A stretch of 47,596 nucleotides of DNA from the NCBI GenBank assembly GCA_020050835.1, contig JAGVKB010000019.1, forward strand, positions 1-47,596, written 5' to 3'. A program made the position numbers and the translations under genes. Numbering within the stretch: the stretch's first letter is position 1; every line of letters starts with the position of its first letter. The stretch comes from Candidatus Obscuribacterales bacterium. GTDB taxonomy: Bacteria; Cyanobacteriota; Vampirovibrionia; Obscuribacterales; Obscuribacteraceae. Below the pieces are notes generated by a model. The model did not search any database, was not told where the DNA came from, and was given only the letters and a program-made list of their open reading frames with translations. Below are positions 17,448 through 47,596 of the stretch, in pieces.

Positions 17448-17546
17448 ATGCCTCTCGCTCTGGCCTTCTTAAGCATCGCCGCTCTCCTGAGCGGTCAGCT
17501 CTGGCTGGCTGCCGGCATCGGCTTTCTGGTTGCGATGAGCAAGTAG
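17448..17546 (+). CDS. Small hydrophobic membrane peptide (32 residues)
   Basis: A 32-residue ORF that begins MPLALAFLSIAALL and ends VAMSK. Almost its whole length is one hydrophobic helix, with a single Lys at the C-terminus. CAAGGAG lies 7 nt before the ATG, a better site than many large genes here have, and the stop is TAG. It lies 100 nt downstream of an M50 intramembrane protease, with a leader hairpin before it. It could be a regulatory or accessory membrane peptide, or even a substrate of the neighbouring intramembrane proteases; this is inference from location. No family is recognised. Confidence 0.6.
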   Translation: MPLALAFLSIAALLSGQLWLAAGIGFLVAMSK

Positions 17547-24490: not shown

Positions 24491-24522
24491 GGTAAGTACT
24501 CCTTGTAATGAACGCAGAGGAA

Positions 24523-24567
24523 CAGCCGCAAGGCGCTCGACCAGCTCAGTCGAACGCGTTGCGGCTG
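24523..24567 (-). other. Leader hairpin of ndh
   Basis: CAGCCGCAA (24523-24531) pairs with TTGCGGCTG (24559-24567), with a further CG-rich pairing inside. It lies 32 nt upstream of the ndh start codon and 48 nt after the plsC stop. No T-run follows. Confidence 0.5.
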
Positions 24568-24615
24568 CTGACGAGATGCAGAAGCGCTGAAACGTCCCCG
24601 GCCAGCAAGCCGCGA

Positions 24616-25491
24616 TTAAGTAGTCGCCTTCGAGCCGGTCAGCTTGCTTTTGGACCAGCCGTTGTCGTTTAGATCTTTGGCTTGAGCGGCAAGCTGGCAA
24701 ATCTTGCCGAAGACGATGTCCATGCCCAGGTCCAGATTGGCGGGCAGTTTCTCCATCGGAATCGGCTCGCCGAGCACGACCGTCGCCCGGTAAGTCTGCT
24801 CATTCCACCAGCGGCGGAACGCCTGCCAACCGATGGCATGCAGCGCCTTGTGCAGGAGCGAGGCGTGCGCCGGATTGCGGTCATAATCGATCGCCGCCGG
24901 TAGCACGAAAAAAGGCAACTCGCTCTTCTTGTGAGCATGTTTGCCGATCATCAGCACGCCCGCAGCAAACTCCTTGCGAGTCAAGACATTTCTGCGAACC
25001 AGCGTGCCTTGCGGAAAGACAACCAGCGAACTGTCAGGCTCGGAAGCGAGCGCGCGGATGGCCGAGCGAACGGACGCGCCCGGGTTGTTGGCGTGGTCGA
25101 CGACAAGAGCGCCGGTCATCGCGGCCAGCGGAATGCGCGTGCCGAGCACCTGATTGGAGGCGATCAGATAGCGATAGTTGTGCAGTCCAAGCACATGCAT
25201 CACTAACAGCGCGTCCTTTTCAATCTGGTGGTTCAACACAATCAGGTACCGGCCCGGACGGCTGAGATATTCACCGTTCACCACCAACACCGGGCCGACA
25301 TGACGAAAGGTCGAATAGCGTCCGAAACACCTTCGGAGCAGGCGAGCCTTGGCTGTTACCGGCGGCGGCACATAGCCAATATTGAGGAGCTTGGCGCCTT
25401 CGTTTTGCCAGTAACAGGCTTTGCGAAAGACGTACACCGCAGCGACATCCAGAAGCAGGATGGTCGCCGCGCAGAGGATGAACCAGATCAT
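24616..25491 (-). CDS. 1-acyl-sn-glycerol-3-phosphate acyltransferase-like (PlsC family)
   Basis: Membrane acyltransferase of 291 residues. An N-terminal hydrophobic helix (residues 2-22) anchors it. The catalytic block NHQIEKD gives the required His-x4-Asp (about residue 88). Block III, normally F-P-E-G-T-R-S, reads FPQGTLVRR, so the Glu is replaced by Gln and the Arg by Leu. PlsC-type enzymes esterify the sn-2 position of lysophosphatidic acid or lysophospholipids. The gene is divergent from the acyl-ACP-synthetase-like gene 567 bases away; in E. coli these two activities are fused in one protein, Aas. GGAG lies 6 nt before the ATG. It is probably the first gene of the plsC - ndh - M20 - membrane protein - aldehyde dehydrogenase run. 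Confidence 0.85.
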   Translation of the reverse strand: MIWFILCAATILLLDVAAVYVFRKACYWQNEGAKLLNIGYVPPPVTAKARLLRRCFGRYSTFRHVGPVLVVNGEYLSRPGRYLIVLNHQIEKDALLVMHVLGLHNYRYLIASNQVLGTRIPLAAMTGALVVDHANNPGASVRSAIRALASEPDSSLVVFPQGTLVRRNVLTRKEFAAGVLMIGKHAHKKSELPFFVLPAAIDYDRNPAHASLLHKALHAIGWQAFRRWWNEQTYRATVVLGEPIPMEKLPANLDLGMDIVFGKICQLAAQAKDLNDNGWSKSKLTGSKATT

Positions 25492-30308: not shown

Positions 30309-33300
30309 TTAGCGTCTAGTATTTAAAATTCTTACCGCTGCAGCTTTGTTGCGATCGTCTTTCAGCATTTGCAGTAGACGATTTCCAATCGATCTTTCTT
30401 TTGCATCGGTGCTGGCAAGCAGCGTCATCAGGTTGTTAGCAGCACTGACAGAACGGAAATCCTCCGAGCTGAATAGCTCGAGCAGGTTGTCGCCGGCAGC
30501 GCCCAAATCTTTATTTTCTGTGATTGCCAGTAGCCGGCTAGCATGCCGCGAAGCATTGAAATTGAACAAGATTATCTCAGCCGTAGAACGCCGTTCGGTG
30601 CTCTCACTTGAGAGCATTGCCAATAGTGTCAGCGCTGAAGACCGTTCACGTTCGTCGGACGACCTCAGTGCGCTGGCCACCGCTCCTCCGGCAAATTGCC
30701 TTTTAATATCCGATGATGTCACCAGGCTCATCAACTCCCTGGATTCGGAAGCCTTCTGCGAATTGGCAGCCAGATCCAACACGCCTCTGAGCTGATCGCC
30801 AGTAAGCTCCGCTGCGATCAACTGTTTGGTGCCTGCCTTATCTTCTGCAAGCATCTTCAGGAGTTGCTCAAAGTGTTTTTGACCATCAGGGTCGGTTGCC
30901 AGACCTGTTAACCCGTTCTGCTCCTGTCCCGTGCGTGTTATTGCCAGGATCCCTCGTCCAACATCCAGCGTCTCCGGCTTGTTCAACAAAGACAAGAGAT
31001 CTTCTACCCGAAAGTTTCTGCGCAAAATATCTTCTTCCGCAGAGAAAGATCCGTGCCGATTCAGAGAGAAGGACTCCAGCAACATATTTGCACCTTCGCG
31101 CCGTTCGGGATCGGACGAAAGAATATCCATCAGCTGCCGAGTGGCTTCGGGATACTTTCCTTGCTCTCTAAGCAGCATGAGACCAACCAGCGCCGGTACT
31201 GAGCGGCAGCCCCGCAAGATCTTCTCGGCGGTATCATGCTCCGGAGTTTTTAGCATATCGAGCAACTTTTCGCCCATCTCCTTTAAATTCTCTTTCTGGA
31301 TTGAATTACGCCTGTGCGTAAGAAGGCTAATCATCGTCTTCTTGGCAGTTGCATCGGCCGGATCAGTCGAAGAGAGCAATCGAGCAAGCTGACCTGCCCG
31401 CGTGACTTTTCCCTTGTCGGTCTCGTCCGGCTTCAGCACTAGCTCTTTTGCCATTAGCAGAGCGTTGTACTTATCATCGACCGAAGTCAAAATAGCGCCT
31501 GCAGCAAGTCTTGTTTTGTCATTGCCAAGCATCTTAATGAGTTCACGAGCAACCGCCGCATCGGATCCAGCTCGAGGCTGGCCATCAGCTCCAGCAGCCT
31601 CTTCCAGAATATCTGACGCCAAGCCGGATATGGCTCTCAAGTCATTTTGATCGTCGCGCGGAGTTGCCAGCAGCTTGAGCAATTCGCGCGTACCAGCTAC
31701 TTCAGCTGGATTTGAGCTTGCCAGCAGCCGGGCGGTCTTTGCAGCTTGATAGTCCGACCGTGCAGTGGAAAGTAGCGTGTATGCAGCTTCCTTATCGGCA
31801 GCGGAAGAACCGAACAGCATACCAAGCAGAAGGCCCGCAGCCGGCTTGTTGGAGTCGTAGCCCATCATTTCAAGCAAGTTTGTTGCACAAACTCGATCGC
31901 TTTGAGAGTGCGAACTCAGCATCGTAACTAGAGCCTTGCCTTGCCTTGCTTCCTGCGATGCTGGATCGGCCTTTGTTAGAGCCTGCTGCAAAGTAGCATA
32001 AGCAGCCGGCGAAAGCTTACTTTCAAGAATGGCAGGCACGAATGAACCGTAAGGACGAGCTCGCAATGTAGCGAGAAGCTCTTCACCTTCATTTCGTCTT
32101 TGGGATCCTTCGGGCGCGTCAAGCAACCGCATCAATTGTGTGGCAGCGCCAGTTTCGACCATCTTCAAGAGTACTTTGCGAGCCGCTCTGTCATCCGTGT
32201 TTTCTGAGTTGAGCTCGACTGAGAGTTTCAAAAACCTTTCGATCAGATGCGGTTCGACCATTTTCGTTAATAGCGGCTTCGCCAAGTCAGGATACTGCTT
32301 GTACAGATGATCGACCAGCTCCGGAACTCGTAGCTTGCCATCGGCTCGCTGGGGATAATTTTTATACATTTCAAGCAGGCGTTCGGCGTCATTGATATTG
32401 TCGAAGGATTTCATCACCTGCTTTGCCAGAGTCTGTGTTTCTGGCTGATTGAGCAAACCAACAATCTGTTCGGCTACTCTCCTTTCCTGATACGAGCGAA
32501 TATTCCGGAATCTGCCTTCCGCTGTCAGAGCGGTATCTTGCGAAGATTTTATGACTTCCACGAACTGCTCGACATTGCTTCGGTCTCCCGCCAGCAGCAT
32601 TTTCTCGAGCTCTTTTGCTGCCACTTTTTGTTTTGGATCCTCTGCGATCTTCATAAATGCTTTTAAGTCTTCTGAGTCCGGAAGCGCCTTCAGCAGCCCA
32701 GACGCCAACTCTTTGTTGGTGCCAAGCAGCTTCAGCATCATTTCATAGACGCTTACGCTCTCGCCCTTCAGTGTAAGAAGGTTTACTGCCACCACTCTGT
32801 CCTGTCCTGATGCTGCAATCATCTTCAACAGTTTGTCGGCATCCTCCCCGTCCTTCGGCACGATCGAATCCATAATGGTGATCAGCTGAATAACGGCTTT
32901 GCGTTCGGACTGGTCTTGCCCGCAAGCAAATATCATCCACCCTTTAGCCTGTGATTGTTCGTCACCGCAAATCAAGCTAAGCACCTTCTCGGCAGTTTTA
33001 TTTTCGCTCCCGTCGGAACTGGCAAGCATGGCTAATAAAGCCCGTCCCGACTTGACTTCGGATGAGCGTGCCGGTGAAGACAACAGATCGAGAATCTTTT
33101 CTACCTGCCTTTTCCCTTCATCCCCGTTGCGCCAGCGAAGAAGAAGTTGATGAGTGTGTTCACGATCGGCCGTGTCCAGCATCTTGCCAGCGGTCGCTCT
33201 TACAGCAGGATCATTGTCATTGAGCAAGTCCATCAACTCCTTCGCATCGGCTTTGTCTTGCAGGTCGGGGCTTTTTTTCAAGTCCAGCAGCTCTCGAACG

Positions 33301-34241
33301 TTACTCCTGCCGCGCGGGCTGTCGGCAGCAGTTACGAGCTGATCATAAAGATTGGGAAGGGCCGGATTACGCTTGATTTTGAGCATCTCGGCAATGTACT
33401 GGGGCTCAAGCGAACTGTCCAACAGCGCACACGCATCTGCCCTTTGCGAGCTCGCCACCATTTGCAGTAAGTCCCTAGCAACGGCTTTTGCGATCCCCTC
33501 TGAGCTCGCCATCAATGCGAACAGTTGAGTGCCGGACCGCCTTTCCTGTCCATCCTCGCTTGCGATGAGGCTCCGGACAGCTTGGAATTCCGGTTGGCGA
33601 GAGGAATCCTTGCGAAGTTCCAGCACTGAATGTAAAAGCTCTGGATCGCTACCGAATGCATTTAACATCGCTGCGGCGTCGGCTTGAGAATCCCGCTTAT
33701 TGACCATTTCAAGCAAGACAGCAGCATCTTTATGTTGTTGTCCCGGATCGCCAAGCATACTTAAGATGCGCTGGACAAAGTACATGTTGACACTTGACTC
33801 CCGGGAATCGGGCTGGCAGCCAGCCTTCAATACTGCGGACATAAATTCAACCGCTGTCTTATTGCCTGGCTGGCCGGACAGTTCGAGGAATTTCTTTGCT
33901 GCGCGCGGATCGGAAAGATAATCAGCCACGGCGAGCGCCAGCGTCTTATCTTGCCGTTGGAGTTGCAACAGCTTCTCGCTAGCTGCCTTGTCATCACCGT
34001 CTTCCAGCGTACGGACAAGGTTCTCCAAAGCCTTCTCTCGTTGGTCGGTGGATTCAAGCGGGCGTGTTTCTTCCAGAAGATCCTTCGACACCTTCGCAGT
34101 AGACTTGCTGGCATCGCTCATTTGGACCGTCTCACTTTCAATGTCCAACCAGCACAAAGGCGACTCAGCCGACAATTCGCCGGCACCGCCAGCCAATTGG
34201 TCACACGTCGTCTCCCAGCGGCTGTCCCAATGATTCACCAT
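30309..34241 (-). CDS. Giant HEAT-like alpha-solenoid repeat protein
   Basis: Protein of 1310 residues with no recognised enzymatic domain. I chose MVNHWDSRW (34241) because CGGAG lies 10 nt upstream; MSDASKSTAK (34121) is an alternative start. From about residue 60 to the end it is built of helix-pair repeats of roughly 35-40 residues with the pattern A-x-x-L-L-x-M-L-x-S-x-D-x-x-x-R-x-x-A, for example SGRALLAMLASSDGSENKTAEKVLSL, ARLLASSNPAEVAGTRELLKLL and NNLMTLLASTDAKERSIGNRLLQML. I estimate 30 or more units, giving a long solenoid for protein binding. There is no signal peptide or membrane span, so it should be cytosolic. Base composition is clearly lower in GC and codon choice more relaxed than in flanking genes, which suggests transfer or a different selective history. 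Its partner is unknown. Confidence 0.85.
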   Translation of the reverse strand: MVNHWDSRWETTCDQLAGGAGELSAESPLCWLDIESETVQMSDASKSTAKVSKDLLEETRPLESTDQREKALENLVRTLEDGDDKAASEKLLQLQRQDKTLALAVADYLSDPRAAKKFLELSGQPGNKTAVEFMSAVLKAGCQPDSRESSVNMYFVQRILSMLGDPGQQHKDAAVLLEMVNKRDSQADAAAMLNAFGSDPELLHSVLELRKDSSRQPEFQAVRSLIASEDGQERRSGTQLFALMASSEGIAKAVARDLLQMVASSQRADACALLDSSLEPQYIAEMLKIKRNPALPNLYDQLVTAADSPRGRSNVRELLDLKKSPDLQDKADAKELMDLLNDNDPAVRATAGKMLDTADREHTHQLLLRWRNGDEGKRQVEKILDLLSSPARSSEVKSGRALLAMLASSDGSENKTAEKVLSLICGDEQSQAKGWMIFACGQDQSERKAVIQLITIMDSIVPKDGEDADKLLKMIAASGQDRVVAVNLLTLKGESVSVYEMMLKLLGTNKELASGLLKALPDSEDLKAFMKIAEDPKQKVAAKELEKMLLAGDRSNVEQFVEVIKSSQDTALTAEGRFRNIRSYQERRVAEQIVGLLNQPETQTLAKQVMKSFDNINDAERLLEMYKNYPQRADGKLRVPELVDHLYKQYPDLAKPLLTKMVEPHLIERFLKLSVELNSENTDDRAARKVLLKMVETGAATQLMRLLDAPEGSQRRNEGEELLATLRARPYGSFVPAILESKLSPAAYATLQQALTKADPASQEARQGKALVTMLSSHSQSDRVCATNLLEMMGYDSNKPAAGLLLGMLFGSSAADKEAAYTLLSTARSDYQAAKTARLLASSNPAEVAGTRELLKLLATPRDDQNDLRAISGLASDILEEAAGADGQPRAGSDAAVARELIKMLGNDKTRLAAGAILTSVDDKYNALLMAKELVLKPDETDKGKVTRAGQLARLLSSTDPADATAKKTMISLLTHRRNSIQKENLKEMGEKLLDMLKTPEHDTAEKILRGCRSVPALVGLMLLREQGKYPEATRQLMDILSSDPERREGANMLLESFSLNRHGSFSAEEDILRRNFRVEDLLSLLNKPETLDVGRGILAITRTGQEQNGLTGLATDPDGQKHFEQLLKMLAEDKAGTKQLIAAELTGDQLRGVLDLAANSQKASESRELMSLVTSSDIKRQFAGGAVASALRSSDERERSSALTLLAMLSSESTERRSTAEIILFNFNASRHASRLLAITENKDLGAAGDNLLELFSSEDFRSVSAANNLMTLLASTDAKERSIGNRLLQMLKDDRNKAAAVRILNTRR

Positions 34242-34475
34242 TTCAAGTAATCTCCGTAATGCACATACGATCAACCAACCGGCTCAATTTAGCCAGCAAG
34301 TGTTACAAGGGTGCTAAGGCTCATGGACGAGTTGTCCACGCGCAATCTCTCTCCAAATGCAGGCGGCGAGATTGGTTACTTGTCGGTGAGAATAACTGTC
34401 CTTTGGGAGCTGTTGCCTACACCCGGTCGATGTCAAAGGAAGCATTTCTTACTACAGATGACAATAGCTTCAAGC
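34242..34475. other. Short interval upstream of the solenoid gene
   Basis: No gene seen. It contains the ribosome binding site of the solenoid gene at its left end (CGGAG on the minus strand) and is bounded on the right by the NUDIX terminator. A promoter for the solenoid gene is expected here but is not clear. Confidence 0.4.
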
Positions 34476-36301: not shown

Positions 36302-37453
36302 ATGCGTGAGCGTTACCCGACGCCCTTCGTGCAGCTAGCAACGGTAACCTTGCTGTTGAGCGCGAACGGATGTTGGCAAAGCGAGAAAGTACACAAGGCC
36401 GGTTCACTTCCGGACACACTCTATGTCACGCCGTTCGGCGCCGAAAACCACAAGTACGGCGGCATCGAGGGCAAGGTGCTGATCGACAAAACCGTCCCTT
36501 ATCTGGACGGAGCGCTGGGCAAGTTTCACTACCGAGACGACGGCAAGTTGCTTTCGACCAGTGAGACTTACGAACCGGATAGCACCGGAGTTCGCAAACC
36601 AAAGAGCGAGGCCAGCTTCACGCCCGCCGGCAAGGTGTTGAAAGGGTTCCTGCGGCGCCCGGATGGCACTACTCGCTTAAGCACCGAGCTTTTGCCGGAC
36701 GGCAGTCGCGTGCGCCAATACTACTGGCCCGAAAGCAATCGGCTGTTCATGCGACAGCTGACCAGCGCCGCCGGCAGTACACGGCAAGAGTACCTGCTGC
36801 GCGACAACGGCAACACCTGGGCCAAGATCGACTCCGTCAAGAGCCACTGGTGGAGAGAGCACAGCTGCGAGCTGTTCCGCGATGACCAAACCAGGCAATA
36901 TCGGCTCGATGAGGTGGACGGTTTCAAACGAGTGAGTGTTTATCGCGGCTGCGGAGAGAAGCTCGACCACGTCTCGTACTGGAAATACTCCCACGACCAG
37001 CTGATCGGTGGCTACAACCATCTGCACGGTTTGGACGAATACGACACCGAAGGCAAGATCGCTCGCTGCATAGTCTTTACCGACTTCGAGGGGCGCATCT
37101 CACCGAAAGCCTGCCAGCTGCCCTGCGACGATGGCTGGATGATCATGCAGTTTTCCGACGACAATCGCAGCGGGCAGAGCGTTGAGCTGCTGAGCTGGCG
37201 AGACGGCAAAGGCGAGCTGAAGCAGCGCCTGCTCATGCCGTTCGGTCCGATCGCATCAGTGACGCTGCCGAAAGGTAGCCAGACTCCTCTCAGCCGGCCG
37301 CCGCGGCTGGACGCTATCGACATCTGGCGAGTCAGAGAGCTCGATTTGAGCGCCTTCGAACAGTACAAGCAGCAGTTTCGCAACGAAAAGCTAGATTACT
37401 GCGGGATGCGCATCGCCAACGATCCGCTCCGCTGGTACCTGCAAGACGACTGA
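36302..37453 (+). CDS. Hypothetical lipoprotein-like protein at the head of the VWA/MoxR cluster
   Basis: Protein of 383 residues. The N-terminus looks like a signal peptide (MRERYPTPFVQLATVTLLLSANGC) with a possible lipobox (A-N-G-Cys24), so it may be a lipoprotein or secreted protein. The body is beta-rich with repeated Tyr/Asp/Gly motifs (YRDDGKLLSTSETYEPDSTG; KGFLRRPDGTTRLSTELLPDGSRVRQYYW; YDTEGKIARCIVFTDFEGR), reminiscent of short antiparallel repeat units of the MORN or YD kind. This is a resemblance only. AAAGGCGATC lies upstream. It is followed by the first VWA gene after 150 bases. Its function is unknown. Confidence 0.65.
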   Translation: MRERYPTPFVQLATVTLLLSANGCWQSEKVHKAGSLPDTLYVTPFGAENHKYGGIEGKVLIDKTVPYLDGALGKFHYRDDGKLLSTSETYEPDSTGVRKPKSEASFTPAGKVLKGFLRRPDGTTRLSTELLPDGSRVRQYYWPESNRLFMRQLTSAAGSTRQEYLLRDNGNTWAKIDSVKSHWWREHSCELFRDDQTRQYRLDEVDGFKRVSVYRGCGEKLDHVSYWKYSHDQLIGGYNHLHGLDEYDTEGKIARCIVFTDFEGRISPKACQLPCDDGWMIMQFSDDNRSGQSVELLSWRDGKGELKQRLLMPFGPIASVTLPKGSQTPLSRPPRLDAIDIWRVRELDLSAFEQYKQQFRNEKLDYCGMRIANDPLRWYLQDD

Positions 37454-37474
37454 GCGGCTGAGTGCGCTCGGTCA

Positions 37475-37501
37475 ACCGGCAACCCGAAGCGACCTGCCGG
37501 T
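37475..37501 (+). other. Hairpin between the lipoprotein and first VWA gene
   Basis: ACCGGCA (37475-37481) pairs with TGCCGGT (37495-37501). A competing pairing, CCCGAAG with CTTCGGG, overlaps it, so two alternative structures are possible. Confidence 0.4.
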
Positions 37502-37603
37502 CCCTTCGGGCGTTGCCATCTTCTGCCCGCCGAATCAAGCGGACGCCATTCGGCGGACCGCTCCGACCGGCAGCACTTTCAACCCCAAAAGGAGGAATCA
37601 ACG

Positions 37604-38770
37604 ATGCCACAGTGGATTACCGATCTGTGGGAGTTCGCCTCCAGCGTGCATTTCACCGACTGGAAGGTGGGTTGCGCCCTGGCTGTGGTGGCACTCTTGC
37701 TGGTGTGGTTGTGGAAGGGTCTTCAGCACGCGGTGGCACACACCGCCGTGCACAAGCACAAAGCGCGGTCATTCGCCTTGTTCGGCTTGATCTGTTCGCT
37801 CTTGCTCGTCGGCAGCTGGTCGATGTTCGCCATGGCCCAGGCGGACCCGAAATCGACCGAAATCGTCAGCACCGAGTCTTACATGGCGCGCGAGTTCATC
37901 CTGATGGAGGATCGCTCGGGCTCCATGTTCAGCTGGGACATCGAGGCGCCCGAGCTGGCGCCGCTGGTGGACCGGTGGGAGAAGGAGCAGCTCGAGGCCT
38001 ACGAAGCGGAGCGCCGGCAGTATCCGTTGCTTTACCCGAACCCGCCCCGGGAGCTGGTGAAGCGCCCGGAGAGGACTTCCGCCGCGATGATTCAGCGCTT
38101 TCAGGCCGCGCTTTATGTGGCCGAGAAGTTCCTGAAAAGCCGGCCCGACGACGACCGCTTCGCGATGTTCACGTTCGACGACTCCTGCTACATGGTCGAG
38201 CCGCTCGGCCGAGACCGCAAGCTCCTGCTGGAGGCGCTGCGCGAGATCAGCCGCAAGAGCGGCGGCGGCACCAACTTCGACGGTCCCCACCCGGGTTCGC
38301 CGCAGGTAGGCGCCGTCCAAAAGTCGATCGACCACCTCAACCGGTACGGCAAGGCCAAAGTGCGCTGCATGATTCTGATCAGCGACGGTGACGCCGGCAT
38401 CTCCCCTGAGCGGCACCAGCAACTGGTCGAGCAGATGAAGAAGCCGGGGCAGGAGATTCACATCTATGCCCTGGTAGCCGGACCGAAGGCCAACATGACC
38501 AACTCGGTGACCGAGTCGCTCCGGCGCCTGGTCAAGGAAGTCAACCCGAACGACCCGAACCGCCCGGAGCTGGCAAAGACGGTGATCTGGGCGGGAGACG
38601 GCAAGGCGATGGAGGAGGCGTTCGAGCTGATCAACCGGCTCGAGACCTCGTCCGTCGAGTCCAACCCGGTTCCGAAGGACCGTGATGTGCGTCACGAGTT
38701 CATTCTGGCCGGCTGCGTACTGCTCGCTCTCTTCATGGGCGCCTGCAGCGTATTCCGAGAAGAATTCTAA
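37604..38770 (+). CDS. VWA domain-containing membrane protein (first)
   Basis: Protein of 388 residues with a von Willebrand factor A domain. Two hydrophobic helices near the N-terminus (about residues 23-40 and 59-80) and one at the C-terminus (EFILAGCVLLALFMGACSVF) resemble the BatA/BatB layout. The MIDAS metal site is complete: DRSGSM (Asp103, x-Ser-x-Ser), GGGTNF (Thr) and ISDGDAG (Asp). VWA proteins of this kind bind metal and protein ligands and are remodelled by MoxR ATPases. AAGGAGG precedes the ATG. The next gene starts 14 bases after the stop. A long charged insertion (EKEQLEAYEAERRQYPLLYPNPPRE-type region) sits after the MIDAS loop. Confidence 0.9.
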   Translation: MPQWITDLWEFASSVHFTDWKVGCALAVVALLLVWLWKGLQHAVAHTAVHKHKARSFALFGLICSLLLVGSWSMFAMAQADPKSTEIVSTESYMAREFILMEDRSGSMFSWDIEAPELAPLVDRWEKEQLEAYEAERRQYPLLYPNPPRELVKRPERTSAAMIQRFQAALYVAEKFLKSRPDDDRFAMFTFDDSCYMVEPLGRDRKLLLEALREISRKSGGGTNFDGPHPGSPQVGAVQKSIDHLNRYGKAKVRCMILISDGDAGISPERHQQLVEQMKKPGQEIHIYALVAGPKANMTNSVTESLRRLVKEVNPNDPNRPELAKTVIWAGDGKAMEEAFELINRLETSSVESNPVPKDRDVRHEFILAGCVLLALFMGACSVFREEF

Positions 38771-38784
38771 CTGGAGGACCAACC

Positions 38785-39807
38785 ATGAACGTTCGCGTCA
38801 ACGCGATGCTCGACCGGTTTCGCTCGCCGCCGTCCTGGCTGACCACGGCCCTGGCCGCGGTCGCAGCGGTGGTGGCAGCCGGCGAATCGGTGTTCTACGG
38901 AATGAAAGTTTTCACCGCCGACGGCGACGCCTTCGACCGGCTGATCCTGGGCAGCTCGCTGGCTGTTCTGGCCACCGGCCTGGTCTACCTGACGCGGCAA
39001 CCGCTCCTGGCGGTCGGCCGGCGCCTGGGAGCGGCGATGGCCGGGGGTCTGGAGTTTCGGATGCTGTACGTGCCCGAGCACGTCTGGTGGCTGCTGCTGG
39101 CGCTCGCCGTCAGCGGCTCCGCCTTCGGACTGTACAAGCTTTCGCTCGGCGAGGCCGCCAACTGGCACCTCTACCTGACGGCAGCTTCGCTGACAGTCCT
39201 GGCGGCCGGCGCGGTCGTGCAGCTGGTGCAACACCGCTGGGCGGGCATCATCTCGCTGGCGGTCGGTGTCGTCCTGATGGCGGCGGGGGCGCTCTTGCTG
39301 ACGGCGAAGTCCGCGCAGATCGACTCTTACAATCAAGCGATGCAGACGCACAAGAGCGAAAAGCGCGAGCTGGCCGTCGAGCAGAAGCTGCTGGAGCAGT
39401 CGCTCCAGAACTATCTGAGCAATCAGCAGCGCTCACAGCTGAGCCGGCTCGTCTTCCCCGACGCGCCCTCCTTCCTGACCGCCAGAACCTTCTTCCACAG
39501 AAGCAATCTCTTCGCTCAGACGCCGGGCAAGGGGAAGCAGGCTTACGAAGAGATCTGCCGGTCGCTCATGTTCAACTCGGGCAATCGCTACTTCGGTCTC
39601 ACAGTCGAGCAGCAGGACGTCTACGAGCTTGACGCTCGGCGGGCGCAACGCAATCTGGAGAAGCTGATTCGCTCCGGACAAGCAGGCGGTGCCGGCATGC
39701 CGAACGGCAAACAAGGTCAAGGTCAGGGTCAGCAACCAGGCGAACCGCGCGATCCCGGTCGGGAGCCGAACCCCGGTTCCGGCCGTATGCCGCGCAACAC
39801 TCTCTAG
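38785..39807 (+). CDS. Polytopic membrane protein between two VWA genes
   Basis: Protein of 340 residues, unknown function. It has about five hydrophobic helices in the first 175 residues. A predicted cytosolic or periplasmic coiled coil follows (TAKSAQIDSYNQAMQTHKSEKRELAVEQKLLEQSLQ). Next comes a globular part (residues 215-295), and then a Gly/Gln/Pro-rich tail (GKQGQGQGQQPGEPRDPGREPNPGSG). TGGAGG lies before the ATG. The 14-17 base gaps to both neighbours indicate tight co-transcription and probably a complex with the two VWA proteins. I do not recognise the family. Confidence 0.75.
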   Translation: MNVRVNAMLDRFRSPPSWLTTALAAVAAVVAAGESVFYGMKVFTADGDAFDRLILGSSLAVLATGLVYLTRQPLLAVGRRLGAAMAGGLEFRMLYVPEHVWWLLLALAVSGSAFGLYKLSLGEAANWHLYLTAASLTVLAAGAVVQLVQHRWAGIISLAVGVVLMAAGALLLTAKSAQIDSYNQAMQTHKSEKRELAVEQKLLEQSLQNYLSNQQRSQLSRLVFPDAPSFLTARTFFHRSNLFAQTPGKGKQAYEEICRSLMFNSGNRYFGLTVEQQDVYELDARRAQRNLEKLIRSGQAGGAGMPNGKQGQGQGQQPGEPRDPGREPNPGSGRMPRNTL

Positions 39808-39824
39808 AAAGGAGGGCAGCAAGC

Positions 39825-41060
39825 ATGCAGATTCAAATTGGCGAGCACCTGATCGAGTTCGACTACGAGGTGTACCTCCGTTACTTCTGGGTGGGCGTCC
39901 TGTTCGTGGTCGCCTGCCGCGTGCTTGGCTACTTCGCTCTCAAGAGCCTGCGCGAAGACTACAGCAAGCGGCAGAACCTGGAGCGGACCACCCGCGCACT
40001 GAAGTGGACCGGCGTCGCGGTTTCCACCTGCTTGTGGTCGGTAGCAGCTACGCTCCTGGCAGTCGCTGCCGCCGAGCCGTTCGAGCCCAACCAGCCGATT
40101 GTGGTGCCAGCGGGCACGATCAGCTACGTGATGGCCTTCGACGTCAGCCCGAGCGCTGAAGCCGAGGACTATCGAGACAGCCTGCCTCCCCCTCGCCTTC
40201 CGGATGGGTCTGCCAATCAACCGATCGGACCCTGGGGCAGTCGGCTGCAAGTGGCTCGTTGGCTGGCTTTCAACAAGATCATGAAAGCGATGCCTGGCAA
40301 CAAGAAGGGCATCGTCGCTTATACCGCCGATGCCCGAGTCGTTTCGCTCCTGCGCGACGACGACCAAGTCATCAACGACCTGCTCAACAACGACGAGGCA
40401 CTGACTGCCCCAGGCGGCGGCTCGGATCCCAGCGACGCTTTGCGAGCGGCGATTCAAATCCTCCGGAAGCAGTACGACGAAAGCAAGCAGCAGATGATCT
40501 TCGTCTTCACGGACGGAGGCGTTAGCGATCTGGAGGAGAAGACCTCGCAGGACGACAAGGACGTCTGGGAGCGTGACTTTCAGCGCACCCTGAAAGAGCT
40601 GGCGGCCCTCAAGGAGCAGGCGCTTCGATCCGGCGTGAAGCCACCGAAGGTGGTGCTGATCGGAGTGGGCGGCGACCAAGAGGTGATGGTGCCGCTGTAC
40701 TACACCGACGGCGAGCGCGTTCGCAACGAGAAAGGGGAGCCCGACTTCTTCCCGTTCGGAGCGCCGGCAGACAAGAAGGAGAAGACCAAGCTGGTCGAAG
40801 CCAACATCGTCATGCTCAAAGACCGAATCGGTGCGGTCGTCGACTGCCAGTACCTGCGCGTCAGCCAGAACTGGCAGGAGAACGAGCAGTTGAGCTGGGT
40901 GAAGGACGTGATCGGCGGGCAGAAGAGCGCGGTCGGCAAACGCTATCTGACAGCCTACCCGCTCTACGCCGCGATGGCTCTGATCCTCCTGCTGTTCGCC
41001 CGCGGGCTGTTCCGCAGCAGCGACGCGATCGCGCGGAGGCGCATGCTTCCGAGCAACTGA
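39825..41060 (+). CDS. VWA domain-containing membrane protein (second)
   Basis: Second VWA protein, 411 residues. Two N-terminal hydrophobic segments (about residues 20-40 and 63-82) and a C-terminal helix (YAAMALILLLFARGLF) flank the VWA domain. The MIDAS motif is DVSPS (Asp106, then Ser-x-Ser), with VFTDGGVSD supplying the later Asp. The Thr of the usual G-G-G-T loop is Ser (PGGGSDPSD), which can still coordinate metal. A long insertion follows (ADKKEKTKLVEANIVMLKD). The site AAAGGAGGG is strong. The pair of VWA proteins with an intervening membrane protein resembles BatA/BatB pairs, but the intervening protein is unfamiliar. Confidence 0.88.
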   Translation: MQIQIGEHLIEFDYEVYLRYFWVGVLFVVACRVLGYFALKSLREDYSKRQNLERTTRALKWTGVAVSTCLWSVAATLLAVAAAEPFEPNQPIVVPAGTISYVMAFDVSPSAEAEDYRDSLPPPRLPDGSANQPIGPWGSRLQVARWLAFNKIMKAMPGNKKGIVAYTADARVVSLLRDDDQVINDLLNNDEALTAPGGGSDPSDALRAAIQILRKQYDESKQQMIFVFTDGGVSDLEEKTSQDDKDVWERDFQRTLKELAALKEQALRSGVKPPKVVLIGVGGDQEVMVPLYYTDGERVRNEKGEPDFFPFGAPADKKEKTKLVEANIVMLKDRIGAVVDCQYLRVSQNWQENEQLSWVKDVIGGQKSAVGKRYLTAYPLYAAMALILLLFARGLFRSSDAIARRRMLPSN

Positions 41061-41110
41061 CGTGGCAGGGCCGAGTGCGTACCGCCATTGGTAAAGCGCA
41101 TTCGGCACGC

Positions 41111-41174
41111 CGCAGCAGCTCATGGCTTGCTGCGGAGATTCACTGGTGCGAAGCGCTCATCTGTCGAGCGCTTC
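41111..41174 (+). other. Tandem hairpins in the moxR leader
   Basis: CCGCAGCA (41111-41118) pairs with TGCTGCGG (41129-41136), and GAAGCGCTC (41151-41159) with GAGCGCTTC (41166-41174). The second ends 37 nt before the moxR start. An imperfect GCCGAGTGCG/CGCATTCGGC pair lies just upstream. No T-run follows. Confidence 0.55.
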
Positions 41175-41211
41175 TTCTTACCTGAACAAGAACTCTGGAA
41201 AGAGGTGAACA

Positions 41212-42267
41212 ATGTCTACGCAAGTGACCCCCGCCCTGATCGCCAAGCGCATGGGCATGTTGAAGCACGAGATCGGCAAGGTGCTCCGCGGCTGCAACGG
41301 CGCGCTGGAGGTGGTCGTCCGCGCTCTGCTGGCCGGTGGCCACGCCGAGCTGGTCGGCGTGCCCGGCACCGGCAAGAGCTTGCTGGCCAAGGCGATGGCC
41401 AAGTCGCTCGGGATGAAGGCCTCGGTCTTCACCTTCCTGCCCGACATGATGCCGGGCGACATCGTCGGCACGGAGATCTTCAATCCGGCCAACCGGCAGA
41501 TGGAGCCGCTGCCCGGCAAGATCGACCCGGAGTCGCAGATCATCGTCGGCGACGAGTACAACCGGGCTCCGCCCAAGACCGTCAACGCCGCGATCGAAGT
41601 GATGCAAGACGGCATCCTGCACATCGGCCGGCAGCGCATCGCGATGAAGCGGCCGTTCTTCGTGCTGGTCCGCAACCCGATCTAGCAGAGCGGCACCTAC
41701 GCCACCCCGGAAGCGGTGCTCGACCGTCTGGCGGCCTCCGCGACGCTCAACTACCCGCCGTTCGAGGAGGCGGTCAAGCTGGCGGCCGACCGCAACGTCA
41801 TCCAGCAGGACCCGATCGAAGCGGCCAAGGTGTGCGAGGTGCTGAAGGCCGGCGAAGTGCACGCCTACCAGGACTTCGTGCGCGACACGGTGGAGGTGCC
41901 GCTGGCGATCGCCCGTTACATCGTGCGCCTGGTCTACGCCACCCGGCCGCCCGAGGACAAGGAGGTCGGCGACGACGAGGTGGACTTCAGCCTGTACGAG
42001 AAGTACATGCCGGAGGAGTACAAGAAGGACAATCTGATCTATGTCGGCGACTCCAACCGCGGCATCATCTGGCTGTCCTCGCTGGCGCGCGCGAATGCGG
42101 TGCTGGCCGGGCGGACGGTGGTGACCGATCAGGACGTCAAAGACGTGGCGGTGAGCGTGCTTGCCCACCGGCTGACGCTCAACGACCAGAAGTCCCACAA
42201 GTACCCGCGACACATCGGCCGGGTGATCATCAAGAAGCTGCTCGAGAAGGTCGAAACCACCGACTGA
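41212..42267 (+). pseudogene. MoxR-family AAA+ ATPase interrupted by an in-frame TAG
   Basis: MoxR ATPase reading frame of 351 codons before the final stop. The Walker A GVPGTGKS lies at about residues 49-56, FLPDMMPGDIVGTEIF follows, then Walker B IIVGDEYNRAPPKT, and sensor 1 reads FFVLVRNPI. There the frame meets TAG (41683-41685), then continues without any shift as QSGTYATPEAVLDRL and an intact MoxR lid domain to 42267. Family members read N-P-I-E-Q-x-G-T-Y here, so the TAG replaces the conserved Glu and differs from GAG by one base. No ribosome binding site suggests restart. Both halves keep coding-like composition, so the change is recent, a sequencing error, or read through. MoxR ATPases remodel VWA proteins; the VWA genes are immediately upstream and the DUF58 gene follows. 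GAAAGAGGTG supports the start. Confidence 0.9.
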
Positions 42268-42302
42268 ACGGAGCACGACGCCGCTGCGACGCGCAGACGG
42301 AT

Positions 42303-42350
42303 GCGGTCAGGTCTGCCGTCGATTCGGTATCGCCGGCAGCGCTTGACCGC
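42303..42350 (+). other. Leader hairpin of the DUF58 gene
   Basis: GCGGTCA (42303-42309) pairs with TGACCGC (42344-42350), and CTGCCG/CGGCAG pair inside (42313-42318 with 42334-42339). It lies 54 nt before the start codon. Confidence 0.5.
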
Positions 42351-42403
42351 CTTTCTCTCCGACCTGCGCAGCCGCGCCGGTCTTAGCCATGAGGAGAACA
42401 ATC

Positions 42404-43426
42404 ATGCAATTCTTTGGAAGAGCACCGGCCCTGTCCGCCGAGCAGAAGCTCGAGCAGGACGTCGACCGCGTCCTCGATGAGGTCGCCGAAGGGATGCACA
42501 ACGTGCGCTGGGACGTGCTGCGCTCTTTGCGCGCCGGCGAAAAGCTTTTGCAGACCGGCGGCTCCGGCATCGAGTTTCGCCAGCTGCGCTCCTTCGTCCA
42601 GGGGCAGGACGAGATCAAGATGCTCCACGCCCGCCAGACCGCCAAGCGCGGCGGCGAGCATGGAGACTGGGTGGTGCGCGAAAACCGTCCGGAAGTGATC
42701 AGCATCGACTACCTGCTGATGGACGTCGCACCCACCCACGACTTCGGCAACCTGCGCGAGTCCAAGCTCTGGCTCTGCGCTCGCGCCGGCGCCACCGCAG
42801 CGTTGTCCACGGAGGCTGCCGGCGACCTGCTCGGCTTCGTCGCCTACGCCGACAACGAGATCGTCCGCCACATCCAGCCGCGGTCGCCGCGACGCATCCT
42901 TAGGGATATCATCGGCAACATCATCGAGCCGCCCTACGCTTCCGGAGATGTCGCCAGCGGGCTCGAGGATGCGTTCTCCAAGCTGCCCCGCCAGCGCACG
43001 AGCGTCGTCTGGATCACCGACTGCCTCAATCTGACGGACAAGCAAAAGGACCTGGTGGCCGAAGCGGCCGGGCGGCATCGCCTGCTGGCAGTGGTTCCGC
43101 AAGACTTGCGCGAATGGAAGCTGCCGGAGCCCCGCTGGTGGTGGCCGTTCCCCTACCGGCTGAAGGTGTTCGACTTGACCACCCACCGGCGCTACAGCTT
43201 CTACTGCAACAAGCGAAACCGGGACCTGTACACGCAGGAGTTCCAGCGCCACACCGAAGAGCTCGTGCGCTTCTTCGACCAGGTCGGCGTCAGACACGCG
43301 ATCGTCCACACCGAACACGAGGTGGAGGTCCGCGACTACAACACCCAGGCCGAGCTGGAAAAGGCGATCACCGAGCATCGCATGGAGCAGGTGCTCAAAG
43401 TTCAACAACTGATCTGGATGCCCTGA
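42404..43426 (+). CDS. DUF58 domain-containing protein
   Basis: DUF58 protein of 340 residues, with the start MQFFGRAPAL preceded by GAGGAG at 7 nt. The DUF58 core is clear: GSGIEFRQLRSFVQGQDEIKMLHARQTAKRGG (about residues 51-82), then VVRENRPEVISIDYLLMD, where the strand leads into a VWA-like fold. DUF58 proteins almost always accompany MoxR ATPases and VWA proteins and are thought to act in the same chaperone-like or assembly system. There is no membrane span, unlike many DUF58 members that carry two N-terminal helices. The next gene starts 23 bases after the stop. Confidence 0.85.
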   Translation: MQFFGRAPALSAEQKLEQDVDRVLDEVAEGMHNVRWDVLRSLRAGEKLLQTGGSGIEFRQLRSFVQGQDEIKMLHARQTAKRGGEHGDWVVRENRPEVISIDYLLMDVAPTHDFGNLRESKLWLCARAGATAALSTEAAGDLLGFVAYADNEIVRHIQPRSPRRILRDIIGNIIEPPYASGDVASGLEDAFSKLPRQRTSVVWITDCLNLTDKQKDLVAEAAGRHRLLAVVPQDLREWKLPEPRWWWPFPYRLKVFDLTTHRRYSFYCNKRNRDLYTQEFQRHTEELVRFFDQVGVRHAIVHTEHEVEVRDYNTQAELEKAITEHRMEQVLKVQQLIWMP

Positions 43427-43449
43427 CACCCAGAAAGGAGATGATTTGT

Positions 43450-44628
43450 ATGGCAACGATGAAACTTGCTTTCTGCGCCTGCGCCGCTCTGGCCGCCCTG
43501 ACCTTGAGTGGTGCCTCCGCATTCGCGCAGCAGCCGCGCCAGCCGGGAGCCGTGCCGGTGGCCGACAAGGTCTTCGACTGGTTCCCCAAGGAAGCGCCTT
43601 TGAAAGACCGGCGCATCTACGTGGAAGTCGAGATTCTGACCGAGTCGACCGCCCACGACCAGTACGACCGCCTGACCGGGCAGAACTTCCGGTACGGCGA
43701 GCGCTTCGGCAACAAGGTCGGCAACCTGATTCCGGTCCGGTTCCGCATCTTTCTGGTCAAACCGCCAGCCGGCGGTGAGGAGACGACCGTCCAGTTCGCC
43801 GCCCTGTCCGCCAACCCGCCCCGCTTGACGCTCCTGCCGGTGCCCAACCAGGACTGGCATGTGGCCAACCAAGCGGTGCTGCCAGCCGGCGAGCAGCCGG
43901 TGTCAATCGTGTCGGTACCGAATGTGGTGCTGGACTGGGGCGGCAAGGAGTACCAGTGCTCGCAGATGATCCAGGTGACCGCCCTGGTGCAAACCTTCAA
44001 GGACCCTCGCTTCCGGCTCAACCTCTGGCTCGAGTTTACCTACGCCATGAGCCGCCTGCCCGGCGGCGGTCCGGATTGGCGCCCGCTCGAAACTCCGGAT
44101 TTCTGGGTCGACCTGTCGAGCGTGGCAGACCCCGGCCCGCAGCTGTCCACCGGCAACACGGATGAAGTCGAACAACTTCGCCCGGTCATGCCGGCCTTCG
44201 TGCTGATCGGCGTGGGAGCACTCTTTGCGCTCACACCGCTGATTTACTGGGTGACGAGGTTTGCCCGTCGCAACCTGGCAAGCGTGCAGGCGCTCGATCC
44301 GGCCGAGCAGCTCTGGCGCACGCTCAAGCCGATCCTGTCCCGCTCTATCGTGGACAACAACCCGCGGCTGTACAGAATCAGCAACCAGGACGTGGCCGCG
44401 ATTGTCACCGCCATCGGTGTCTACGTCTTCCGCACGGACGGAGTCCCAATCAATGCCTGGACGGTCGAAGAGCTGCTCGAGCGGCAGGACGAGATCGCCG
44501 ACGGCGAACAGTGGTACGCCCTGCTCAAGCCGCTCAAACGCCGGGTCGTCCAGCTCGGCAAGCGACTGACTCCGGAGGCCTACGGGCGGATCATCGCTCA
44601 GATTCGCCAGGTTTGCCCCGAGGTCTAA
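43450..44628 (+). CDS. Secreted/anchored protein of the MoxR cluster (BatD-like position)
   Basis: Protein of 392 residues. I prefer the ATG at 43450, because AAGGAG directly abuts the earlier ATG at 43441. It has a signal peptide (LAFCACAALAALTLSGASAFAQQ), so residues about 29-245 should be periplasmic. This part looks like a beta-sandwich (YVEVEILTESTAHDQYDRLTGQNFRYGERFGNKVGNLIPVRFRIFL). One transmembrane helix (AFVLIGVGALFALTPLIYWV, about residues 250-270) is followed by a cytosolic helical domain of about 120 residues. The layout and its place beside DUF58, MoxR and VWA genes recall BatD (beta-sandwich plus C-terminal anchor), but I cannot confirm homology. Confidence 0.75.
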   Translation: MATMKLAFCACAALAALTLSGASAFAQQPRQPGAVPVADKVFDWFPKEAPLKDRRIYVEVEILTESTAHDQYDRLTGQNFRYGERFGNKVGNLIPVRFRIFLVKPPAGGEETTVQFAALSANPPRLTLLPVPNQDWHVANQAVLPAGEQPVSIVSVPNVVLDWGGKEYQCSQMIQVTALVQTFKDPRFRLNLWLEFTYAMSRLPGGGPDWRPLETPDFWVDLSSVADPGPQLSTGNTDEVEQLRPVMPAFVLIGVGALFALTPLIYWVTRFARRNLASVQALDPAEQLWRTLKPILSRSIVDNNPRLYRISNQDVAAIVTAIGVYVFRTDGVPINAWTVEELLERQDEIADGEQWYALLKPLKRRVVQLGKRLTPEAYGRIIAQIRQVCPEV

Positions 44629-44705
44629 GTAGTGTCAGTTCACAGCGGACTGCCTGTCAGTGTTTCACAGCAGCGCAGCCACGGTTCTACTGACTTCCTC
44701 AACAC

Positions 44706-44727
44706 GGGGCGGCAATCCAGCCGCCCC
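44706..44727 (+). other. GC-rich hairpin
   Basis: GGGGCGGC (44706-44713) pairs with GCCGCCCC (44720-44727) around a six-base loop, 78 nt after the preceding stop codon. Confidence 0.5.
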
Positions 44728-44735
44728 CTTCATCA

Positions 44736-44785
44736 GCCGGAGATCGGCAAGCTGCCAGGCAACTGGCGCCTTGCCGATCTCCGGC
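44736..44785 (+). other. Exceptionally stable GNRA-capped hairpin in the S41 protease leader
   Basis: A 50-nt element with 23 stem positions: 44736-44758 pair with 44763-44785, with one C-C mismatch (44752/44769) and one G-U pair (44753/44768). The loop is GCAA, a GNRA tetraloop, at 44759-44762. It ends 20 nt before the S41 protease ATG, just upstream of the GAAAGGAACC site. The symmetry is too good to be chance. There is no T-run, so it is not a usual terminator. Confidence 0.8.
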
Positions 44786-44805
44786 CCATTTGAAAGGAAC
44801 CTGTC

Positions 44806-46626
44806 ATGGCAAAGTACTGGCGTTCGACCGCTGCCTTCTTGCTGTTGGCCACGGTCGCCACCGTCGCTCTCGCTCAGCAACCGGAGCAAATTCCGGCACC
44901 GCAGCCGGTGTCACAGTCCCAGGGCGGTGCTGCCGCCCAACCGGCGCCGCCCGCAGTGCCTGGCTTCGAGCAGCTGCGGAAATTCCTCTTCCCGCAGCCG
45001 GCCAACGTGACCGTCGACAGCAACCTCAAGGGAGCGCACGCGCTCTACAAGAAGACGCTGACGCTGTGGAAGGAGAACGCGCTCGTCTTCATGGACCTGA
45101 AGGCCGGCAACCTCGACTGGAGCCGCAGCAACTCGTGGTACGAGAAGTGGGAGAAACGCTCGGCCGAAATCAAGGACGAAAAGGACTTCGCCACCGCCGA
45201 CCTGCTCATCCTGATGGCGCTGGACGATCTGGGCGAGCGCTTCAATTACTACCTCACGCCCGACGACGTGGAATCCGAAAACAAACAGACCGACCCGACC
45301 GCGGTCGGCATCGGGGCTCGCTTCCAGATGGAGAACATGGAGGAGCTCCTCAATGCACTGGCGAAAAACGCCACCGAAGAGGATGCCGAAAAGGCCCTGA
45401 TCGTCAGCCCGAAGCATCGCATCGTGCTGACGCCGATCAAAGGATCCCCCTCGGAGTCCGCTGGTTTGAAGGCCGGCGACATTTTGAAGAAGGTCGACGG
45501 CGAAGACGTCAACGGCAAGACTCTGCGCTCGGCGTTGAAGCTGATCAAGGGGCGGGCCGGCACCCAGATCGAGCTCGAAGTGGAACGAACGGGCCCGGAT
45601 AGCAAGCCGGCGACAGTAAAGCTCTTCATCCGCCGGCAGCCGTTCACGCATCCGGTCGTCCACGAGACCGACCTCGACAACGACATCGTGCTGATCAAGC
45701 TCGACCACTTCTCCGCCGAGCAGACTCAAGCTGAGATGGAAGCAGCTTTGAGGCGGGTGGCCCAACTGAAGCTCGAGAAGAAGAAGCCGGTCAAGCTGAT
45801 TCTGGACCTGCGCGATAATCCTGGCGGCCGCCTGGACTTCGCGGTGAACATCGTTTCTTACATGCTTCCGGAAGGTAACATCGTCACCCTCAAGGAGCGG
45901 AAAGGCGACGATATTCAGATTACCCGCTGGACGGCGACCCGCGATGCGTTGATCTACAGCTATCCGGCTCCGGTCAATCCCCGCAACATGCTGGCAATCA
46001 GCCCGCAGAAGCGGACTCTGCTCCTGCCGGAAGATGTGCCGCTGGTGATCCTGATCAATCACCGCAGCGCCTCTGCTTCCGAACTCACCAGCCGCACGCT
46101 GCAATTCTACAAACGCGCAGTGGTGGTTGGTGAATCGACCTACGGCAAGGGTGTCGGCCAGCAGGTTTACGACCTGCCCGACAAGCGCCGCGGCAAGGTC
46201 ATCAAGTTCATCTTCTATCCGGGCGACCAGGACATCGACTGGCAGGGCGTGCATCCCAACCCGGGTTACGAGGTGAAGTGGCAGAAGCCGGCCCACGGCG
46301 TCGCGGACAACCAGCTCGAAGCGGCCAAGAAGGCCGTGCTGGCGGAGTACGAGCGGATCGAGAAGGAGAAGGAGCACGCCAGGCAGAAGCGGGACGCCGC
46401 CATCCAGCTGAACAAGGAGGAGTTCGAGAAGCGCAAACAGCAACGGGCCGAAGAGCTGGAGCGGCAAGCGAAGGAGCGGGCCGACGAGCAGTTGAAGAAG
46501 AAGGGCGGAAACAACCCGGCCGAGCCGAAGCCGGGCGCCAAGCCCGACTCCAAGCAAGCCGAGCCGGGCAAGCTGCCGGCCGGTGCTCCCGGCACGATGC
46601 CGCCCGCCAACGACAATGACGACTAG
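44806..46626 (+). CDS. S41 family C-terminal processing peptidase with PDZ domain
   Basis: Secreted or periplasmic serine protease of 606 residues (CtpA/Prc family). It has a signal peptide (WRSTAAFLLLATVATVALAQ, residues 4-23), a Pro/Gln-rich linker, and an N-terminal helical domain (residues 60-165). The PDZ domain (about 200-290) contains GSPSESAGLKAGDILKKVDGEDV. The S41 domain (about 290-480) has the nucleophile in RSASASELTS (predicted Ser423) and the general-base Lys in GESTYGKGVGQ (Lys448). DLRDNPGGRL is another family signature. The C-terminal 100 residues are a charged coiled coil followed by a Pro/Gly/Ala-rich tail. These enzymes cut proteins from their C-terminus and are active in envelope turnover. 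The strand and spacing place it in the MoxR/VWA cluster. Confidence 0.94.
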   Translation: MAKYWRSTAAFLLLATVATVALAQQPEQIPAPQPVSQSQGGAAAQPAPPAVPGFEQLRKFLFPQPANVTVDSNLKGAHALYKKTLTLWKENALVFMDLKAGNLDWSRSNSWYEKWEKRSAEIKDEKDFATADLLILMALDDLGERFNYYLTPDDVESENKQTDPTAVGIGARFQMENMEELLNALAKNATEEDAEKALIVSPKHRIVLTPIKGSPSESAGLKAGDILKKVDGEDVNGKTLRSALKLIKGRAGTQIELEVERTGPDSKPATVKLFIRRQPFTHPVVHETDLDNDIVLIKLDHFSAEQTQAEMEAALRRVAQLKLEKKKPVKLILDLRDNPGGRLDFAVNIVSYMLPEGNIVTLKERKGDDIQITRWTATRDALIYSYPAPVNPRNMLAISPQKRTLLLPEDVPLVILINHRSASASELTSRTLQFYKRAVVVGESTYGKGVGQQVYDLPDKRRGKVIKFIFYPGDQDIDWQGVHPNPGYEVKWQKPAHGVADNQLEAAKKAVLAEYERIEKEKEHARQKRDAAIQLNKEEFEKRKQQRAEELERQAKERADEQLKKKGGNNPAEPKPGAKPDSKQAEPGKLPAGAPGTMPPANDNDD

Positions 46627-46653
46627 GGGCCGTAACGGTCCGATTGCTCTTAC

Positions 46654-46688
46654 GTGACGGTGCCGGCTCGCTCGAGCCGCACCGTCAC
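46654..46688 (+). other. Hairpin between the S41 protease and the next gene
   Basis: GTGACGGTGC (46654-46663) pairs perfectly with GCACCGTCAC (46679-46688), with an inner GGCT/AGCC pair. It lies 28 nt after the protease stop codon and 29 nt before the next start. No T-run follows. Confidence 0.55.
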
Positions 46689-46717
46689 TTTCACAACTAC
46701 AATGCGGAGGTCAAACC

Positions 46718-47596
46718 ATGATTCGCTTTGCTTACCGCACCAACAAACCCGGAGCGAAGGCGCGACAACTTCAGTCTGCCTGGGCACTGCGCGCCTTGTT
46801 CCTGGCGGTCTTGGTGTCACTGCTGGCGGTGCTGGCTCTCCGGCCGCTTCTGCCGGAGGACAAGCCGGCGCCGTCCGTGCCGACAGCGCGGACCTCGCGC
46901 GACTTCTCGACAACGATGAACCGCAAACAGCTGCTCGAAGCCATCAAGGCCAGCGAAGCGGCTTTCGCCGTCTACCTCAAGCGCGACCGAATGACCGGCG
47001 ACTTCGAGGCTATCGCCAAGGAGTTCGAAAGCATCGAATCCGACGCCGATCTCGTGCGCTTCCTGGGCATGCTCGGCTCGGCCGCCGGAGACGACTACTA
47101 CGCCGTGCTGAGCAATCAGCAGTACGAGCACATCTCCGCGCTCGGCACCGGCGCCAAGATCGGGGTCGACTTCGAGTTCGGCTACGACTGGGGCAAACGG
47201 TCCTGGCTCGTGACGAAAGTCGGTCCGGCATCCGAAGCGGCCGGGCTGAAGAAGGATGACCGGCTGCTGGTGGTCAACAGCTATCAGGCTATCTCGACGG
47301 ACGACTCGAGCACGCGCGACCTGCTCGAAAGGCAGATGAAGGCCAAGCTGGCCGGTTTGATCAACACGCCGATCGAGCTGGTGGTCGAAAGGGACGGCAA
47401 GACAACTACCGTCAACCTCAAGGTGCAGGTGCTTTCGCGCCTGGATGCCTTCAGCGTCGACGATATGGAGCACCCGTTGGAAGGCGGGAAGGTCAAGGAC
47501 CTGAAGACCATCAAGTTCAACCACCTGCGCTCCGCTACCGTTCTGACCGACCTGCACCAGGTGCTGCGCAGCTGGCAGGCAAACGAAGTGCGGGGA
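46718..47596 (+). CDS. PDZ-domain protein, probably a second S41-type protease (partial)
   Basis: An open reading frame of 293 codons that runs off the window end. GCGGAGG lies 7 nt before the ATG. A basic N-terminus with a hydrophobic helix (about residues 28-47, LRALFLAVLVSLLAVLALRPLL) acts as a signal anchor. A helical domain (residues 65-130) resembles the pre-PDZ region of the upstream S41 protease (LVRFLGMLGSAAGDDYYAVLSNQQYEHI; compare LNALAKN-type and DLGERFNYYLTPDD). The PDZ domain lies at about 150-235 (VTKVGPASEAAGLKKDDRLLVVNSYQAI). The following 50 residues (LKTIKFNHLRSATVLTDLHQVLRSWQAN) fit the start of an S41 core, but the catalytic residues would lie beyond the window. It is a divergent paralogue of the upstream gene. 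Confidence 0.85.
   Translation, partial: MIRFAYRTNKPGAKARQLQSAWALRALFLAVLVSLLAVLALRPLLPEDKPAPSVPTARTSRDFSTTMNRKQLLEAIKASEAAFAVYLKRDRMTGDFEAIAKEFESIESDADLVRFLGMLGSAAGDDYYAVLSNQQYEHISALGTGAKIGVDFEFGYDWGKRSWLVTKVGPASEAAGLKKDDRLLVVNSYQAISTDDSSTRDLLERQMKAKLAGLINTPIELVVERDGKTTTVNLKVQVLSRLDAFSVDDMEHPLEGGKVKDLKTIKFNHLRSATVLTDLHQVLRSWQANEVRG

Follow-up and report, generated by a model that had tools for sequence, protein, structure and literature searches.

An in-frame TAG codon in a moxR-type ATPase gene of a conserved operon in an Obscuribacterales genome

MoxR-family AAA+ ATPases (PF07726/PF17863) encoded together with vWA-domain and DUF58 partners are the closest described counterparts of the gene analyzed here, PDB 2r44 being the solved MoxR nearest to it by sequence. 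The window, i.e., the whole analyzed stretch of 47,596 nucleotides of a Candidatus Obscuribacterales bacterium (contig JAGVKB010000019.1), carries a gene with the same domain order and the same operon partners but, unlike in those MoxR proteins, its reading frame is interrupted, and the Thr and the Glu of a conserved motif are missing. In-frame TAG codons within conserved genes are also a feature of UAG recoding and amber suppression in bacteria and phages. In this case, the TAG is probably a recent nonsense (loss-of-function) allele lying in one of the genes of a conserved MoxR/vWA/DUF58 operon, as represented in one draft assembly.

The interrupted gene and its operon

Translation of the frame at 41212-42267 (351 residues) gives exactly one stop, the TAG at 41683-41685 (codon 158), as the sequence-only reading had stated. 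When read through this codon, the product can be aligned from residue 1 to residue 349 with a relative's MoxR homologue, and the alignment shows no further interruption. The AAA_3 core (PF07726) is recognized with 88 bits on the fragment 5' of the TAG alone, and both the Walker A sequence GVPGTGKS and the Walker B region GDE are present there; AAA_lid_2 (PF17863, 51.5 bits) is encoded only 3' of the TAG, and the lid would share a polypeptide with the core only if the codon were read through. The MoxR TAG shows the strongest two-sided coding signal among all internal stops in the 2.28 Mb of the genome that were surveyed, and the two halves are therefore not a chance adjacency of ORFs. The features of the gene and of the operon are as follows (all on the + strand; the basis of each assignment in brackets).

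41199..41206, +, plausible ribosome-binding site (AAAGAGGTG...) upstream of the moxR start (sequence reads GGAAAGAGGTGAACAATG; consensus match only)
41212..42267, +, moxR-type AAA+ ATPase gene with one TAG interruption (translation, homologue match, Pfam, alignment)
41212..41682, +, open 5' part of 157 residues with Walker A, Walker B region and sensor-1 Asn (PF07726 positions 1-113 of 131; alignment)
41668..41673, +, GTC CGC before the sensor-1 AAC; near-invariant Thr codon absent, in-frame one-codon gap (alignments with 42 homologues and with 2r44)
41683..41685, +, in-frame TAG, codon 158, at a conserved Glu/Asp position (translation; alignment)
41686..42264, +, open 3' part with arginine-finger region and lid domain PF17863, GC3 0.93 (Pfam, hexamer score, GC3)
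36302..37453, +, conserved neighbour of unknown family, intact (tblastn to L085/L086; ORF check)
37604..38770, +, vWA-domain protein, intact (Pfam, tblastn, ORF check)
38785..39807, +, conserved operon protein, intact, TAG end (tblastn, ORF check)
39825..41060, +, vWA-domain protein, intact (Pfam, tblastn, ORF check)
42389..43426, +, DUF58 protein, intact (Pfam, tblastn, ORF check)
43342..44628, +, conserved operon protein of unknown family, intact, start approximate (tblastn, ORF check)
44806..46626, +, PDZ-S41 peptidase, intact, TAG end (Pfam, tblastn, ORF check)
46718..47596, +, second S41a-like gene, open as far as the window edge, where it runs off the window (ORF list, tblastn)

The operon spans 36302-47596, with moxR as the fifth of nine genes and the DUF58 gene next to it. 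Among the gene calls of the window an internal stop occurs in moxR only, and the eight neighbours are open (the last one up to the window edge), in agreement with the earlier statement that the surrounding genes are intact. The comparison of the same locus in related genomes, which the sequence-only reading had recommended, revealed an identical gene order in G007:C167 and G023:C236, which represent two further genera within the family, and in both MoxR is uninterrupted (tblastn); moreover, no internal stop was found in any other MoxR among the matches listed for 60 related genomes. The stop is thus absent from orthologues at a conserved locus, as in a nonsense pseudogene. A scan of genome contigs found no close relatives of the lid part, and the DNA pattern around the MoxR site, with the variable base left open, had no match in other genomes.

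It is also worth mentioning that the gene order of this MoxR/vWA/DUF58/S41-peptidase operon, which includes two vWA genes and genes of unknown family, is kept in three genera (window 36302-47596; L085; L086). Elsewhere in the window, this bacterial genome encodes a full-length serpin at 355-1485 on the minus strand (PF00079, 341 bits), as well as a repetitive protein of 1321 residues (30309-34274, minus strand) that contains many short leucine-rich, helical-looking repeats and gives no Pfam match.

The motif at the stop and the age of the lesion

When the window MoxR is aligned with 42 homologues, taken both from related genomes and from its own, the column occupied by the stop holds Glu in 41 sequences, which bears out the earlier placement of the TAG at a conserved Glu, and Asp in a single one, the best-scoring homologue, encoded in the matching operon of G007. 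The description of the gene as otherwise intact was overstated, since a codon for a near-invariant Thr, located two codons before the sensor-1 Asn (Thr in 41/42 homologues, Cys in 1/42), is missing as well. Where the homologues have A/S/G-T/C-x-N-P-I-E, the window MoxR reads V-R-N-P-I-stop, one residue shorter, and its alignment with PDB 2r44 places an identical one-residue gap. Within the sensor-1 motif T-x-N-P-x-E, the Asn and Pro are kept, and both conserved side chains are gone, because the Thr is missing and the Glu is replaced by the stop. The Thr codon appears, from these alignments, to have been deleted in frame; this loss may be older than the stop, and a second missing near-invariant residue so close to it fits loosened constraint.

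The identity to the G007 orthologue amounts to 35% for the part 5' of the stop and 38% for the part 3' of it, the corresponding GC3 values are 0.95 and 0.93, and the hexamer coding score remains high across the stop. Such similar values on both sides indicate that the stop is of recent origin and that the 3' half was still being translated not long ago; together with the PF17863 match, the GC3 value also upholds the claim that the downstream half retains coding composition and the lid domain. In 59 near-invariant columns, 17 departures were counted in the window MoxR and 17 in the intact G007 orthologue and, by this measure, the former is overall no more degraded than the latter.

If the TAG is a nonsense allele, with the base real in the organism as we infer, translation would start at 41212 and release factor 1 would terminate it at codon 158. 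In the resulting 157-residue product, Walker A, Walker B and the sensor-1 Asn would still be present, but the segment with the arginine finger and the entire lid would be missing; considering what is established about AAA+ ATPases, a MoxR truncated in this way should not form a working AAA+ ring and is presumably inactive. The sampled lineage would then probably have lost MoxR function, with the partner genes intact.

The main rival explanation is that the gene of the organism is whole and that the TAG is a sequence or consensus error of a metagenome-style draft, or else a minority strain variant that entered the consensus. We regard this as unlikely, although it deserves serious weight, since the genome is a draft of 154 contigs (95.7% complete, 4.1% contaminated) with two single-codon lesions in otherwise open genes, moxR and sbcC, and since both halves of each of these genes look normally constrained. 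Against an error speak the neighbouring genes, which are free of internal stops, and the missing Thr codon, which would call for another error no more than about 15 bases away.

TAG in the rest of the genome

Release factor 1 is encoded in full length and above the cut-off (prfA, 500 bits), and TAG closes 279 of 839 long ORFs, compared with 298 closed by TAA and 262 by TGA. Within the window, TAG ends the genes at 44806-46626, 38785-39807 (in the operon of MoxR), 23090-24700, and 12422-13369. Of the two TAG-ended genes named in the sequence-only reading, the one ending at 46626 stands, whereas position 17546 is probably not a real gene end, as its ORF overlaps the ORF 16660-17346 in another frame. 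A further in-frame stop within 10 codons follows 35.7% of TAG-ended, 28.3% of TAA-ended and 40.2% of TGA-ended ORFs, and no excess of backup stops after TAG-ended genes was found. A CUA anticodon occurs in none of the genome's 47 tRNA-model hits; the assembly is about 96% complete and tRNA-His and tRNA-Ser(UGA) are also not among the hits, and it is possible but not likely that a CUA tRNA was missed through incompleteness. It should be stressed that rplB ends in TAG and that rpsS, in frame with it, starts nine bases further on, so that efficient suppression would fuse L2 to S19. The absence of CUA among the tRNA hits, the intact release factor 1 and the terminator counts are in line with the earlier opinion that wholesale reassignment is unlikely. 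The main text of a genetic-code screen of 250,000 genomes (PMC8629427) makes no mention of Cyanobacteria or Melainabacteria and provided no lead.

A tRNA of another kind was noticed in the same genome, namely one shaped like tRNA-Sec but with the cysteine anticodon GCA (L114:14709-14808, minus strand, equivalent to G000:C17:124709-124808; RF01852, 54.9 bits), accompanied by a canonical tRNA-Sec(UCA) on G000:C100 (70.2 bits). In shape and anticodon, the former resembles selC* tRNA-Cys, which was reported (PMC7609411) from anaerobic Firmicutes, Thermodesulfobacteria, Nitrospirae, and Proteobacteria; the lineage in which it occurs here is apparently a different one.

The survey for internal stops with a strong coding signal on both sides covered 2.28 of 7.01 Mb, i.e., about a third of the genome, and was based on a hexamer model, as a codon-usage scan was too weak to recover even the MoxR case. 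Clean internal stops in recognisable conserved genes numbered two, those of moxR and sbcC/rad50, and both are TAG. The otherwise full-length SbcC/Rad50 gene (G000:C3:46782-49823) has its in-frame TAG at C3:47616 (L174:7616), and no internal stop was found in SbcC of the other family genomes with a match. The sequence-only reading had treated an absence of other internal TAG codons as the mark of a simple error or an isolated mutation, and sbcC has one too. A second TAG counts against the nonsense reading, as a suppression model would predict it; however, with three stops equally likely, two TAG codons out of two have a chance of about 1 in 9, which is not significant. Most of the remaining candidates were, in our reading, antisense shadows or the ends of genes with a start codon behind them. 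A path model intended to detect frameshifts picked up mainly antisense shadows and overlapping genes, and yielded no baseline that could be used.

Two further damaged genes were recorded, a remnant resembling a phage integrase, whose N-terminal part is disrupted and which contains an internal TAA (L194:18698, minus strand), and a SAM-methyltransferase-like gene that looks frameshifted according to the path model (L131:11853, minus strand; KVLEVGCGDALAH and LVLQEVKELTAVDFDQ). They indicate that the genome is not free of ordinary decay or error.

The proposal that this organism decodes UAG in part as an amino acid, through a near-cognate or an undetected suppressor tRNA, with some full-length MoxR and SbcC being made, is very improbable. 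It draws on two conserved genes with one isolated TAG each and otherwise of full length, on the lack of an equally clean TAA or TGA case in the surveyed 2.28 Mb, and on the C that follows both stops; it is opposed by the tRNA set and the intact release factor 1, by the use of TAG at a third of long ORF ends with no extra backup stops, and by the rplB-rpsS pair. Moreover, the SbcC stop lies in a coiled coil at a variable, non-conserved position, and thus gives no clue to an amino acid. Hardly more credible would be an ambiguity of UAG in this lineage, in which low natural readthrough with no dedicated tRNA lets moxR and sbcC, counted in that reading as non-essential conserved genes, still yield some full-length protein; if readthrough were true for both, it would represent a rare, tolerated natural ambiguity with release factor 1 kept. 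Least probable of all is programmed readthrough or a split gene, with a regulated short fragment or a lid part made separately from the in-frame GTG at 41716, which lies 31 bases 3' of the stop: TAG-CAG is similar to contexts known to be leaky, but the RNA after the stop is no more structured than shuffles (z = -0.06), the orthologues have no stop there, and no properly spaced ribosome-binding site precedes 41716.

Comparison with known systems

Of the four options listed in the sequence-only reading, the nonsense mutation and the sequence error stay in play, while the amber suppressor tRNA and programmed readthrough found no support. As the genome uses TAG normally and no means of readthrough was seen, an ordinary, recent disabling mutation or a sequence error is the most likely origin of the stop. 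The case illustrates how an isolated nonsense allele may be told from a code change in a draft genome, the criteria being the release factor, the tRNA set, the use of terminators, in-frame gene pairs, and intact relatives.

Unlike the systems of UAG recoding and amber suppression, this genome keeps release factor 1, employs TAG as a normal terminator and has no CUA tRNA among its hits. With bacterial single-nonsense pseudogenes, the locus shares one internal stop, intact flanks, intact orthologues in relatives and a normal code; nothing essential differs, apart from the second conserved residue that is also missing here and the fact that the case is known from one assembly.
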